DNA of 64,000 nucleotides, taken from contig CACNFA010000001.1 of assembly GCA_902619675.1 (NCBI GenBank), forward strand, positions 1 through 64,000, written 5' to 3'. A program made the position numbers and the translations under genes. This document shows, in pieces, positions 35,433-59,238 of the stretch (its first letter is position 1; each line of letters starts with the position of its first letter). The notes under the pieces were generated by a model, which saw nothing but the letters and a program-made list of their open reading frames with translations, was not told the DNA's origin and did not search any database. The stretch is from an uncultured Pelagibacteraceae bacterium (GTDB lineage: Bacteria > Pseudomonadota > Alphaproteobacteria > Pelagibacterales > Pelagibacteraceae).

Positions 35433-36686
35433 CTATGCTACAGATGTTGATGTTTTTTTACCATATGTGACAATGGGTTCTGAATTGCCTTTGACTGCAG
35501 AACTGTCGACAGTAACTTTTTCCACATTTTCCATATCAGGCAATTCAAACATCGTTTTTAGAAGAATATTTTCCAATATAGATCTTAAACCTCTTGCTCC
35601 AGTTTTTTTAGCAATAGCCTTTTTAGCAATTTCTGTAATTGCATCATCTTTAAATTCAAGAACTACATTTTCAAATTCAAATAATCTTTGATATTGTTTT
35701 ATTAGAGAATTTTTTGGTTCTTTTAATATTTTTATTAATGAGCTTTCATCTAAATCATCTAAAGTTGCGATAATAGGCATCCTACCAATAAATTCAGGTA
35801 TTAATCCATATTTTATCAAATCTTCAGGTTCTAACATTTTCATAATTTCAGAGAGAGGTTGTTCCTTATAATTTTTTACATTTGCTCCAAATCCAATTGA
35901 ATTTCCTTTCCCTCTGTTATCAATTAATTTATCTAAGCCTGCGAAAGCTCCACCACAAATAAACAAAATGTTTGTGGTATCTACCTGTAAAAATTCTTGT
36001 TGAGGATGTTTCCTGCCACCCTGAGGAGGCACGCTTGCAATTGTTCCCTCCATAATCTTTAATAACGCTTGTTGAACTCCCTCACCTGAAACATCTCTTG
36101 TTATAGATGGGTTTTCAGATTTTCTACTTATTTTATCTACCTCGTCGATATACACGATACCCCTTTGCGCTTTTTCGACATTATAATCAGCCGATTGAAG
36201 TAATTTAAGAATAATATTTTCAACGTCCTCACCAACATATCCAGCTTCAGTTAAAGTTGTTGCATCAGCCATAGTAAAAGGGACATCTAATATTCTAGCT
36301 AGTGTTTGTGCCAAAAGAGTTTTTCCACATCCAGTAGGCCCAACTAATAAAATATTCGATTTAGAAAGTTCTACATCTTTATTATTTTTTGTTTCATGGT
36401 TTAATCTTTTATAATGATTATGAACTGCTACAGACAAAATTTCTTTAGCAAGTTTTTGGCCAATCACATAATCATCGAGCACATTGCATATTTCTTTAGG
36501 GGATGGAACTCCGTCTTGATGTTTTACTAGAGAACTTTTGTTTTCCTCTTTTATGATATCCATACATAACTCTACACACTCATCACAAATAAAAACTGTT
36601 GGACCAGCAATAAGTTTTCTAACTTCGTGCTGGCTTTTTCCGCAAAATGAACAATAAAGTATGTTTTTGTTATTTTTTTCTGACAT
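35433..36686 (-). CDS. clpX: ClpXP protease ATP-binding subunit ClpX
   Basis: ClpX unfolds substrates and feeds them to ClpP. The 417-residue protein has the N-terminal zinc finger with Cys12, Cys15, Cys34 and Cys37 (CSFC and CDEC), Walker A GPTGCGKT near residue 119 and Walker B VYIDEVDK. It also has the pore loop GYVGEDVE and the ClpP-docking loop region in [12 protein letters not shown]. All expected elements are present. It lies 79 bp downstream of clpP, with a promoter candidate between. Confidence 0.97.
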
Positions 36687-36765: not shown

Positions 36766-37377
36766 TTATTTCCTTTTTTCCACAACAGAGTCTATAAGCC
36801 CAAATTTTTTGGCTTCCTCTGCGGTCATAAAGTTATCTCTTTCTAAAGCTATCGAAATTTCGTTTATGGATTTACCTGTATGCTTAGAATAAATCTTATT
36901 CAACCTTTCTTTTAATAACAAGATTTCTTTTGCATGAATTTGAATATCTGTTGCTTGGCCTTGAAATCCAGCTGACGGCTGATGGACCATAATTCTAGAA
37001 TTAGGTAAAGAATATCTTTTTCCTTTTTCACCAGCAGCTAATAAAAAAGAGCCCATAGAAGAAGCTTGACCAATACATAAAGTAGATACAGGAGAATTAA
37101 TATATTGCATTGTATCATATATACCTAGGCCTGCTGTCACTAAACCACCCGGGCTGTTAATATAAAAATTTATTTCTTTATTAGGGTTCTCAGACTCTAA
37201 AAACAATAGTTGGGCTGTAACTAATGAGGCAACCGCGTCATTAACTGGACCTACTAAAAAAACTATTCTCTCTTTTAATAGCCTTGAGTAAATGTCGTAA
37301 GCTCTCTCGCCCTTGCTTGTCTGTTCCACAACCATAGGAATTAGACTATTCATTTTTTCTTCAAAATCGCGACTCAT
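36766..37377 (-). CDS. clpP: ATP-dependent Clp protease proteolytic subunit
   Basis: ClpP is the serine peptidase barrel partnered by ClpX. The 203-residue protein has the catalytic Ser107 in GQASSMGS and His132 in [13 protein letters not shown]. It also has the YINSPGG block near residue 72 and the C-terminal [18 protein letters not shown] that supplies the Asp and hydrophobic groove. Its length is standard. It follows tig by about 20 bp; tig-clpP-clpX-lon is a conserved order across proteobacteria. Confidence 0.97.
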
Positions 37378-37398: not shown

Positions 37399-38772
37399 TT
37401 ACTTTTTACTAATTTTTTTTGGTTTAGTTTTTTGTCTCTCGGAAGATTTAGGTTTTAAATTCTGGTTATTTTCTATATTTGGTTTATTAAAATCAGCAAT
37501 TATTTTTTCTGCCTCTTTAGTTTCTATTTCTTTAGAATTAATTTTAATTTTTGTTTTAATTAAATTAATAATTTTTTCCTCATATAACGAGCCTTTCAAG
37601 CTTTGAGTAGCACTAGGGTTTTTTTTGTAATAATCTAGGATCATTTTTTCTTGTCCAGGCATACCTTTAATTTGCTTTTGAATCTCTGCCTGGATCTCCT
37701 CATTTGAAATTTTTAAATTATTTTTTTCCCCAATTTCATTTAAAATTAGTCCAAGTTTTATTCTCGATTTAGCAATTTTTTCATTTTTTTCTTTATATTT
37801 TTCTCTATCTTCAGGTTTTAAATTTCTTGTCATTAAATCAATTTCTTGTTCAATTAAATTTATTGGTAGATCTAATACATAATTTTTCTCTATTTGGTCC
37901 AAAATTTCTTTTTTTGTAATTGAACTTAAAGCTTGAGAATATTGACTTGAAATTTGTTTTTCTACTAAAGATTTAAGATCAGAAAGATCTTTAGCACCCA
38001 TCATTTTTGCAAAGTTATCATCAATAATGCTTTTTTTAGATTTTTTAAGACTTAAAATTTTACATTCAAAAATCGTTTTTTTATTAGCTAATTCTTTTTT
38101 GGGATGGTTTGCAGGTAAAATTGCATTGACAATCTTTATTTCTCCTTTTTTTACTCCAACTAATTGTTCATCAAATCCTTTTAAAAACAGATCTTTTCCT
38201 AGCTCTATTTGAACTTTTTTTCCCTCGCTTCCATCAAATTTACTTCCATCGATAGTAGCAGAATAATCAAAAGTTACTTGATCACCGATAATTGATTTTT
38301 CATTATCTTTTTTATCTTCGAACTGCTTATTTTGCTCAGAAATTTCTTTTAGTTTATTTTCAATTATTTTTTTTTCAATCTTTATCTTGTATTCGTTTGC
38401 TTTAAATTTGTTTAAGGGTTTTAGTTCAATATTCGGCAAACAATCTATTTGTAATTCATAATTTAGATCTTTACCCTCGCCAAATTGTTTTAAATCTATT
38501 TTGGGTTGACCTGCTATTTTTAATTTTTTTTCTGAGATAGCTTTATTTGAGGTCTCTCTTAAAACTTTATCTATCACTTCTCCATAAATTGATTTTCCAA
38601 ATTGACTTTTTATAACTGATGGAGGAACCTTTCCAGGTCTAAAACCTCTAATAGCTACTTCTTTTTGTAGCTCTGAAAGTCTTTCGTCTATTTTTTGTTG
38701 AATTGTTTTTTTATCAACTACAATTGTCAAGGTAGTTCTTAAGCCTCTTTTTTTTTGAACTTCAATTTTCAT
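37399..38772 (-). CDS. tig: Trigger factor
   Basis: Trigger factor is the ribosome-bound chaperone and peptidyl-prolyl isomerase. With the start at 38772 the protein is 457 residues and begins MKIEVQKKRGLRTTLTI, as in the family. It contains the ribosome-docking loop GFRPGKVPPSVIKSQFG, an FKBP-like domain (VTFDYSATIDGSKFDGSEG) and a Lys-rich C-terminus. A longer frame starting at 38823 would run through the tRNA-Leu gene and is rejected. The ATG is only 9 bp from the 3' CCA of that tRNA, leaving no room for an ordinary leader if the tRNA is cleaved out. Confidence 0.95.
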   Translation of the reverse strand: MKIEVQKKRGLRTTLTIVVDKKTIQQKIDERLSELQKEVAIRGFRPGKVPPSVIKSQFGKSIYGEVIDKVLRETSNKAISEKKLKIAGQPKIDLKQFGEGKDLNYELQIDCLPNIELKPLNKFKANEYKIKIEKKIIENKLKEISEQNKQFEDKKDNEKSIIGDQVTFDYSATIDGSKFDGSEGKKVQIELGKDLFLKGFDEQLVGVKKGEIKIVNAILPANHPKKELANKKTIFECKILSLKKSKKSIIDDNFAKMMGAKDLSDLKSLVEKQISSQYSQALSSITKKEILDQIEKNYVLDLPINLIEQEIDLMTRNLKPEDREKYKEKNEKIAKSRIKLGLILNEIGEKNNLKISNEEIQAEIQKQIKGMPGQEKMILDYYKKNPSATQSLKGSLYEEKIINLIKTKIKINSKEIETKEAEKIIADFNKPNIENNQNLKPKSSERQKTKPKKISKK

Positions 38773-38781
38773 ATTTATTTT

Positions 38782-38866
38782 TGGTGGGCAAGAAGAGACT
38801 CGAACTCTTAAGCCTTGCGGCACTGGTTTCTAAGACCAGCGCGTATACCAATTCCGCCACTTGCCC
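38782..38866 (-). tRNA. tRNA-Leu (anticodon TAG)
   Basis: This is an 85-nt class II tRNA on the minus strand. The acceptor GGGCAAG pairs with CTTGCCC, and the D arm is GTGGCGGAATTGGTA. The anticodon stem CTGGT/ACCAG frames CTTAGAA, giving anticodon TAG, and a long variable arm TGCCGCAAGGCT follows. The T arm is GAGTTCGAGTCTC, and CCA is encoded. It sits between the sugar-phosphate transferase gene and tig, both on the same strand. Confidence 0.96.
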
Positions 38867-38892
38867 AATTAATCGTTGTTTTATATATCAAT

Positions 38893-39954
38893 TTAATTTT
38901 TTGTTAAACGGTAAAGTCTAGAATAAATTATCATGTAAATTAACAATAAGGTAAAGAACCAATATTTACTTAATGTAGGATTTTCAGATAAATACAACCC
39001 AGGCATTATAAGAATAAAATAAATTAAATTTATTATTAGTGAATTTAAATAATTTCCATTTATATTTCCATAAATTTTTGAAATTCTATAAAAACTTAGC
39101 ATGTGTAAATGTTTATTGTCTGGATATATAGGTGATTTTTTTTGTAAGATTTTTCTAAAAAAAGAGAAAAAAACTTCAAAAAAAAGATAAAACAAAAGTG
39201 TACAAAAGAAAAATGAAGAAATATTTGGATTTAAGTTATTAGTAATAATTGTATTTAAACCTATTAAAGCTCCTAGTGTATATGCTCCGCTATCCCCAAG
39301 AAAAATTTTGGCCTTTGGAAAATTAAATAATAAAAATGATAATAAAATTATAATTTGCGAAATTAACAAAATTGAAAATTCTGTATTTCCAGAATTCATA
39401 TTTATATATGTCAATATTATATTAATTATAATCAAATTAATTGTTAAAAGACCATTAAAACCATCGATTAAATTAGCTCCATTTATTACAAACAAAAAAC
39501 ATATTAAAACAAATATTGATGAAAATATATGGCTCGCCATTAAATTAATTAAAAACGGTATGTCGATATTAAAAATTTTTATTGGCAGGATGTAAATAGA
39601 TGTAAAAAGTAATAATATCATGATTATCAATCTTTTTAATGGTTGTAAGTTAATTCTCAAATCTTCTAAAAAACCAATTAAGAACATCGAAAAGCTGACA
39701 AATATATAATCATACAAAATTTTTGAGTAAAGCAGATTGTAGATTATAAAAAAGATACTTAGAGAAAAAAGTATGGCTAATCCTCCACTCCGAGTGACGG
39801 GTAAATCATGAAAAGCTTGAGGTTTAGAGAAATCTCTATCAAGCAAAACACCGTTTTTAATTTTATCGGAATACTTGCTTATTAACAAAAAAATGAAAAA
39901 ACTTATCAAGGCAAAAATCGACAAAAAACTTGCTTCGATTGACTCTGTTCCCAT
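38893..39954 (-). CDS. Polyprenyl-phosphate sugar-1-phosphate transferase (MraY/WecA family)
   Basis: The 353-residue polytopic membrane protein belongs to the glycosyltransferase 4 superfamily, which transfers an amino-sugar phosphate from a UDP-sugar to undecaprenyl phosphate. It shows FLEDLRIN (metal-binding Asp) after membrane segment 3, then NGANLIDGFNGL and FLGDSGAYTLGALIG, then the HLHMLSFYR motif resembling the cytoplasmic HIHH-type loop of WecA rather than that of MraY. It lies outside any mur cluster. It therefore probably starts a surface glycan such as O-antigen, not peptidoglycan. Its exact sugar is unknown. Confidence 0.82.
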   Translation of the reverse strand: MGTESIEASFLSIFALISFFIFLLISKYSDKIKNGVLLDRDFSKPQAFHDLPVTRSGGLAILFSLSIFFIIYNLLYSKILYDYIFVSFSMFLIGFLEDLRINLQPLKRLIIMILLLFTSIYILPIKIFNIDIPFLINLMASHIFSSIFVLICFLFVINGANLIDGFNGLLTINLIIINIILTYINMNSGNTEFSILLISQIIILLSFLLFNFPKAKIFLGDSGAYTLGALIGLNTIITNNLNPNISSFFFCTLLFYLFFEVFFSFFRKILQKKSPIYPDNKHLHMLSFYRISKIYGNINGNYLNSLIINLIYFILIMPGLYLSENPTLSKYWFFTLLLIYMIIYSRLYRLTKN

Positions 39955-57438: not shown

Positions 57439-59238
57439 ATGGAAAAAAATTTATATATTGATGCTTCGCATCCAAACGAAACTCGCATTGTTCTTAAATC
57501 AGGCAACTCTATTGAAGAATACGAATTTGAGAATAAAAATAATTTAAACTTTAAAAATAATATTTATTTGGGAACAGTAAGTAGAGTTGAACCCTCTTTG
57601 CAGGCAGCATTTGTAAACTTTGGGAGAGAAAGGCATGGTTTTCTAGCTTTTAATGATATTCAATCAGATTACTATCAGGTACCCTCTGAAGATAAAGAAA
57701 AAATTAAAATTGCTGAAGAAAAAATAAGAGAAAATTTAAAGAATCAAAACCTAGAAAATCAGGATAATTCAGAAACTAATAACGATAATTCAGAAGAAAA
57801 TAATGATTCTAAAAAGAATAGTGAAATTGAAAAAAAAGAATTACGAGATGAAGTTAAAGCTTCTTTTGGTATAAAAAGATATAAAATTCAAGAAGTTATA
57901 AAACCTGGACAGGTTATTTTGATACAAGTAATAAAAGAAGAAAGAGGACAAAAAGGGGCAGCCCTAACAACTTTTATTTCTTTAGCTGGAAAATATATAG
58001 TTTTAATGCCAAACACTGCAAAAGGTGGCGGGATATCTAGAAAAATCTTTAATTCTTCTGATCGTCAAAAAATTAAAAATATTCTGAGTGAAATTGATAT
58101 TCCAAATAGTATGGGTGTAATTGTTAGAACTGCTGGTGCTAATAAATCAAGAAATGAAATAGAGAAAGATTTTCAAAATACGTTAAAAACTTGGGAAGAA
58201 ATTACCGATAAAGCCCTAGATTCCAATGCTCCATCTTTAGTATACGAAGAAGGTGATATTATTAAGAGGACTTTGAGAGATACACACGATAATGAAACTC
58301 AAAACATTTATGTAGAAGGTAATGAAGCTTATCAAAAAGCAAAAAAATTCATGAAGGAATTAATGCCTAGAAATGTTAAAAATATTAAGAAATATAGAGG
58401 CAAGATACCTTTATTTCATGATGCCAAAATTGAAAAAGAGCTAAATAATATATTTGAACCCACTGTAAAATTAAAATCGGGGGGGTATATAGTAATTAAT
58501 CCGACAGAAGCTCTAGTGTCAATTGACATAAATTCTGGTCAATCAACAAAACAAATTAATATTGAAAAAACAGCTTTGAATACTAACATGGAGGCGGCTG
58601 AGGAAATTGCTAGACAAATAAAATTAAGAGATCTTTCAGGGCTAATAGTGATAGATTTTATTGATATGATGAATTTTTACAATAGACGCACAGTCGAAAA
58701 AAAAATGAGAGAAAGCATTCGAAAAGACAGGGCAAGGATTCAAATTGGGAGGATTAGTAACTTTGGTTTATTAGAAATGACTCGTCAAAGACTTAGAGAG
58801 GGTTCAATTAAGTGGGAAACTCAATTGTCATTAGAGTCATTTTCTCAAAAAATACTTAAAAAAATTCAACATTTAGCCTTTACAGATAAAGTAAAAATTA
58901 TCAAATCTTATGTTCCTGAAAAAGTAAAACTTTATATTGAAAAAAATCTTTTAGAAGAATTAAAATATTTTCAAAAAAAATATTCTTTCAAAGTAGAAGT
59001 TTTATCTGATGAAAAGTTAATTATTCCAGAGTACAAAATTGAATTACTTAACAAATCAAAAAAAGTTATAAATAAGTTTGAAAATATAAATAATATTTTT
59101 GAAATTAAAAAAATTTATAAAGAGAAGATTGATGAAAAAAAAGATCTTAAAAAAGAAAAAAAAGATTTAAAAAAGAATAAATCTTCTAAGAAGTTAAGAA
59201 CTTTGTGGGTAAGAAAAAAAAAAAAGAAATTAAATTAG
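57439..59238 (+). CDS. rne: Ribonuclease E/G, short form lacking the zinc-link cysteines
   Basis: RNase E/G is the main endonuclease of mRNA decay and stable RNA processing. The 599-residue protein opens with [15 protein letters not shown] and an S1 domain ([29 protein letters not shown], read in parts). The S1 domain is interrupted by an acidic Asn/Glu-rich insert at about residues 84-142. Catalytic Asp363 (SIDINSGQ) and Asp406 (VIDFIDMMN) keep the 43-residue spacing of E. coli RNase E. The protein contains no cysteine, so the CPxC zinc link is missing. The C-terminus is a short Lys-rich tail, not a degradosome scaffold. Confidence 0.92.

Follow-up and report, generated by a model that had tools for sequence, protein, structure and literature searches.

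Genes and features at the locus

The DNA analysed (the window) is a stretch of 64,000 nucleotides from a SAR11 bacterium (Pelagibacteraceae) of the ocean. A leucine tRNA gene and the trigger factor gene tig adjoin each other on its minus strand, with the neighbouring genes, the promoter-like elements and a ribonuclease gene located as follows:

38893..39954, minus strand: upstream gene, glycosyl transferase family 4 (PF00953), its end 26 nt before the tRNA
38903..38908, minus strand: -35-like element TTTAAC, 17 nt from the -10-like element (read directly)
38880..38885, minus strand: -10-like element TATAAA, 13 nt upstream of the tRNA (read directly)
38782..38866, minus strand: tRNA-Leu with anticodon TAG/UAG and encoded CCA (ARAGORN; Rfam RF00005, 61 bits)
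38773..38781, minus strand: 9-nt spacer AAAATAAAT from the CCA to the tig ATG (read directly)
37399..38772, minus strand: tig, trigger factor, 457 aa, ATG start (NCBIfam TIGR00115; Pfam)
36766..37377, minus strand: clpP, 21 nt downstream of tig (Pfam)
35433..36686, minus strand: clpX, 79 nt downstream of clpP (Pfam)
57478..58806, plus strand: RNase E/G catalytic region (TIGR00757, 473 bits; PF10150)

On the minus strand, the letters of the junction run CTTGCCCACCA, AAAATAAAT and ATGAAAATTGAAG in succession, with the CCA end at 38782 and the ATG at 38772-38770. The nine positions between them (38781-38773) are A/T throughout, no Shine-Dalgarno (SD) sequence is present in this spacer upstream of tig, and an Rfam search of the junction region returned no structured element besides tRNA-Leu. 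This geometry, including the A/T leader devoid of a Shine-Dalgarno, had been described by an earlier sequence-only reading and was confirmed by direct reading, ARAGORN and Rfam. The spacer is presumed to be the 3'-processing region of tRNA-Leu as well as the 5' leader of the tig mRNA.

Conservation of the tRNA-tig gap

Conservation of the spacing had been put forward as a check, and the gap proved to be held within a narrow range, measuring 5-10 nt at 35 of 39 distinct Pelagibacteraceae loci, with an A/T content of 94% across the family spacers. The remaining loci comprise two with a 34-nt gap (L023, L063) and two in which 164 nt lie between the complete tRNA and tig, both with an integrated phage-like element. 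At 15 distinct loci of a sister family in this order, the gap is 7-21 nt. At the level of the class, tRNA-Leu(UAG) lies upstream of tig at 28 of 30 sampled alphaproteobacterial loci and no tRNA was detected there at the other two; the gaps are mostly 32-141 nt with outliers of 250 and 384 nt, excluding L217 and L227, where the start could not be placed. Since the class keeps the tRNA-tig order but with wider gaps, the synteny is, by this comparison, ancient, and it is in the SAR11 order that the gap was closed. Its recurrence in relatives likewise marks the tight spacing as non-random rather than a product of chance.

The two loci with phage-like elements (L013, L031) carry an integrase-bearing insertion within tRNA-Leu, which brings its own tRNA-Leu(UAG); integrase, tRNA-Leu and attR are located on the reverse strand upstream of tig in L013 and within positions 1-1055 of L031, and the integrase is recognised by PF00589 in L013 and as a homologous ORF in L031. 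The copies of the tRNA 3' part at attR are identical over 55 bp (L013) and 47 bp (L031), so that tRNA-Leu(TAG) serves as attB for integrative elements in these relatives, while the window itself is without an element. In both, the host tRNA 3' part (attR) sits 7 nt before an intact tig and the complete tRNA lies 164 nt away. Because tig is intact in L013 and L031, and the gap is 34 nt in L023 and L063, the exact tRNA-derived short leader appears to be dispensable. Integration of a pelagiphage at tRNA-Leu would amount to replacement of the tig upstream region. An open frame of 81-82 aa, probably fortuitous, runs through the element tRNA and attR in both genomes. A search of phage records with the attachment core returned other phages with tRNA-Leu sequences, among them no named pelagiphage.

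Start codon and transcription of tig

The tig product matches the NCBIfam tig model TIGR00115 with 341.5 bits and aligns over its whole length to trigger factor, with the Pfam domains Trigger_N, FKBP_C and Trigger_C. Trigger_N covers residues 1-144, corresponding to model positions 1-144, and hence begins at the ATG at 38772. The reading frame nevertheless stays open upstream into the tRNA, where a GTG lies in frame at 38823, and translation from this GTG, or from a later codon, would turn the short leader into an annotation artefact. Among the relatives, the relation of gap to frame falls into the three frames at 20, 15 and 2 loci, whereas 39 of 39 distinct family loci retain the ATG, and the residues that follow it are conserved too. 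As the gap varies across frames while the ATG is kept, GTG 38823 is ruled out as the tig start; a later one would cost conserved N-terminal residues, and the next in-frame start already does so. A start other than the ATG is thus highly improbable, and the choice of 38772 as the true tig start, made from the letters of the window, is upheld.

The promoter upstream of the tRNA is defined by consensus match only, with a TATA-type -10 element 19-27 nt before the tRNA at 33 of 38 distinct family loci and -35-like hexamers at about -40 to -46, a normal distance from the -10, in most relatives. The 9-nt spacer, like the equally short spacers of most relatives, leaves no room for a promoter between tRNA-Leu and tig on their common strand. 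A separate tig mRNA could otherwise arise from a promoter inside the tRNA-Leu gene, giving a longer leader that holds the 3' half of the tRNA. Promoters internal to tRNAs can escape judgement by sequence, and TATACG is present in the D-arm of tRNA-Leu; nevertheless, a consensus scan yielded no promoter-like site within the tRNA or the spacer, on which ground this candidate was rejected, and every other tight junction described below would require a promoter of its own, each time within an unrelated tRNA that is under structural constraint. Such an internal promoter is accordingly quite improbable, if less so than a misplaced start codon. As the promoter-like element lies directly ahead of the tRNA and the scan of the tRNA itself gave none, tig is most likely expressed from a tRNA-tig co-transcript. 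A literature search for SAR11 transcription-start maps or SAR11 tRNA-mRNA processing returned nothing direct.

Other tRNA-CDS junctions

Whether other junctions of the same genome are equally tight had also been asked, and they turned out to be as tight as that of tig or tighter. About 9 of the 22 tRNAs of the host genome, collected by Rfam search, are followed at no more than 15 nt by a same-strand ORF beginning with ATG:

tRNA-Met to typA, gap 2 nt
tRNA-His to hisS, gap 4 nt (contig 3, 76637-78049)
tRNA-Gln to cca (CCA-adding enzyme, tRNA nucleotidyltransferase), gap 7 nt (contig 2, 61937-63277)
tRNA-Leu to tig, gap 9 nt
tRNA-Pro to NDUFS4, gap 9 nt
tRNA-Glu to a phosphoglycerate-dehydrogenase-like gene, gap 9 nt
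tRNA-Gly to pterin dehydratase, gap 10 nt
tRNA-Leu(GAG) to a short ORF, gap 11 nt
tRNA-Leu(CAA) to a GDSL-like gene, gap 15 nt

A complete genome from another genus of the family gave a similar figure (about 9 of 29 tRNAs), and in one larger alphaproteobacterium, whose GC-rich DNA the ORF caller handles only crudely, none of 30 tRNAs had a convincing ATG within 15 nt. Across the family, the gap is 1-2 nt between tRNA-Met and typA (15 of 16 loci, L091-L106), exactly 4 nt between tRNA-His and hisS (27 of 29 distinct loci, L121-L150) and 5-7 nt between tRNA-Gln and cca (25 of 27 loci, L151-L178), while that between pterin dehydratase and its tRNA is looser (4-61 nt). A tRNA tightly preceding a start codon is therefore, as far as these genomes indicate, a family-wide, mitochondria-like layout, of which tig is no special case.

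Overlaps were found at none of the nine tRNA-CDS junctions of the genome and in 25 of 44 same-strand CDS pairs of the window (Fisher p = 0.002, resting on approximate gene calls). The lack of overlaps, a positive indication that these junctions are constrained, fits excision of the tRNA from a shared RNA, to which constraint on the tRNA sequence could also contribute.

Several of these loci show further features. At hisS, tRNA-His lies immediately ahead of its own synthetase gene, and at the typA loci L091-L106 the apparent upstream gene ends a few nt before tRNA-Met. A further typA homologue (L107) has no detected tRNA upstream, but a tRNA-Met-like 3' end, AGCAACCA, lies 5 nt before its ATG and is possibly that of a diverged or split tRNA.

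tRNA processing and the expected leader

The window encodes RNase E, as do most of the 61 genomes searched, and this enzyme is the most likely candidate in the host genome for a cut just 3' of the tRNA. The RNase Z model gave nothing above cut-off in the 61 genomes, and the family protein that it did match fits other metallo-hydrolase models better, including PhnP. RNase Z was therefore set aside as the 3' nuclease for want of a recognisable gene, with some doubt left by incomplete genomes and divergent enzymes. Although RNase Z is unrecognisable in the Pelagibacteraceae, the CCA is encoded in almost all of their tRNA genes and the CCA-adding enzyme is kept as well. In E. coli, RNase E is capable of tRNA 3' cleavage, and such cuts lie at most a few nt from the CCA (PMC4681348).

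The proposed course of events would begin with co-transcription of tRNA-Leu(UAG) and tig, probably on into clpP-clpX, from a promoter immediately ahead of the tRNA. The 5' end of tRNA-Leu would be cleaved by RNase P; on the 3' side an endonuclease, in all likelihood RNase E, would cut the A/T-rich sequence no more than a few bases away from the CCA, with exonucleases trimming the tRNA side thereafter. The resulting tig mRNA would start with a 5'-monophosphate and have about 0-9 nt of leader; 9 nt is the expected upper limit, because the tRNA has to be released from the RNA that it shares with tig. At typA, hisS and cca, the gaps are so short that no leadered mRNA would be possible after excision of the tRNA.

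The surroundings of the AUG in the excised tig mRNA are predicted to be unstructured and unpaired, so that the tig start combines the absence of a Shine-Dalgarno with a (predicted) accessible AUG, as a leaderless mRNA does. Initiation would then be of the leaderless or the unstructured-AUG type. Whether a 9-nt leader counts as leaderless depends on the definition, as it exceeds the cut-off of 5 nt used for Zymomonas (PMC7566282) and falls below the 10 nt applied to Streptomyces and E. coli (PMC4681348). Leaderless and non-SD mRNAs of Caulobacter are translated as efficiently as leadered ones (PMC4117421). The layout itself may have arisen from genome streamlining and been tolerated since alphaproteobacterial ribosomes accept leaderless and non-SD mRNAs.

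The sequence-only reading had proposed that processing of the tRNA creates a nearly leaderless tig mRNA and thereby links tRNA maturation to chaperone synthesis. The former part holds as a deduction from the layout, in which neither a promoter nor a Shine-Dalgarno has room in the spacer and a promoter-like element recurs upstream of the tRNA. Co-transcription, processing and a near-leaderless tig mRNA, as one case of a general SAR11 layout with gaps of 1-15 nt, are considered probable, though well short of certain.

Genome compactness and the wider reading

The latter part, a dedicated link between tRNA maturation and the chaperone, finds no support. The same layout stands ahead of typA, hisS, cca, pterin dehydratase, NDUFS4 and the phosphoglycerate-dehydrogenase-like gene, ordinary CDS-CDS spacers are equally conserved in length, a missing SD is common in the genome, and the two element-carrying genomes separate tig from the complete tRNA. 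The tig-clpP spacer measures 21-25 nt in most relatives and the clpP-clpX spacer 77-80 nt, which makes both as length-conserved as the tRNA-tig spacer. Because of this, conservation of spacer length alone proves no processing constraint, and conservation of the tig spacer was rejected as sole evidence of a regulatory switch. SD-like matches across the window are not clearly above shuffles; absence of a Shine-Dalgarno is normal for this genome. The median same-strand CDS-CDS gap in the window is -1 nt (by rough gene calls), and that of intergenic regions in P. ubique is 3 nt (PMC2704228). The tightness of tRNA and tig is what so compact a genome would give.

These observations also bear on the view that the junction is purely a by-product of streamlining, in which mixed, partly unprocessed RNAs are translated and the junction is without consequence for tig expression. 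It draws on the closely packed CDSs, the CDS-CDS spacers that match the tRNA-tig spacer in conservation, the general absence of SD sequences and the retention of an intact tig in prophage-carrying genomes despite their rearranged upstream region. However, the tRNA has to be excised even under streamlining, which at the 15 typA loci leaves the mRNA with 1-2 nt, and overlaps, common between CDSs, are avoided at tRNA-CDS junctions. A by-product of no consequence is thus somewhat unlikely, yet it deserves far more weight than an internal promoter or another start codon.

Beyond tig, processing into near-leaderless mRNAs would allow a broader and more tentative reading, in which tRNA excision acts throughout the Pelagibacteraceae as a general former of mRNA 5' ends, so that typA, hisS, cca and tig, which form a conserved group of genes related to translation, yield mRNAs with leaders of 1-10 nt only upon tRNA maturation and the supply of their proteins tracks processing. 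We regard this generalisation as possible, with the balance leaning against it. Under tRNA excision as a general process, tRNA-His would be tied to its own synthetase and tRNA-Gln to the CCA-adding enzyme. If true, tRNA maturation would be physically coupled to the synthesis of central translation proteins in one of the most abundant cell groups in the ocean, RNase E would become a gatekeeper for translation, and a layout resembling mitochondrial tRNA punctuation would have evolved in an alphaproteobacterium.

Comparison with known systems

The tRNA punctuation of mitochondria is reportedly due to Ojala, Montoya and Attardi (1981). As at part of the SAR11 tRNAs, tRNAs there abut CDSs, excision of the tRNA would create mRNA ends with leaders of 0 to a few nt, and, as at the SAR11 typA locus, only a few nt may separate the tRNA from the end of the preceding gene. 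In SAR11, however, the layout is found at about one third of the tRNAs, local promoters remain and cleavage is a prediction; furthermore, mitochondrial cuts are made by RNase P and RNase Z, whereas in SAR11 RNase Z is unrecognisable and the 3' nuclease is probably RNase E. The SAR11 layout may work like punctuation, but is not classed as the mitochondrial system.

The thrU-tyrU-glyT-thrT-tufB operon of E. coli is a tRNA-mRNA operon from which the tRNAs are excised by RNase P and a 3' endonuclease, and the gap before tufB is roomy enough for a leader with an SD. A tRNA and a protein gene share one transcript there, as they probably do in SAR11, but the SAR11 junctions leave 1-15 nt and no SD.

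The leaderless mRNAs of Caulobacter (PMC4117421) and Zymomonas (PMC7566282) resemble the one proposed here in a start codon at or near the 5' end, the absence of an SD and normal translation. Their 5' ends are mapped transcription starts, whereas the SAR11 end would stem from tRNA processing, and the tig leader may reach 9 nt.

As for the integrative elements, an attachment site of pelagiphages (Fonsiphage) at tRNA-Leu(TAG) beside the trigger factor gene is known from the passages of PMC6811365 that deal with the site. The phages described in those passages resemble the elements of L013 and L031 in their position within the tRNA, in flanking tig and in an element-borne tRNA-Leu; the account in these passages is of the attachment site, with no discussion of an effect on the tig leader.
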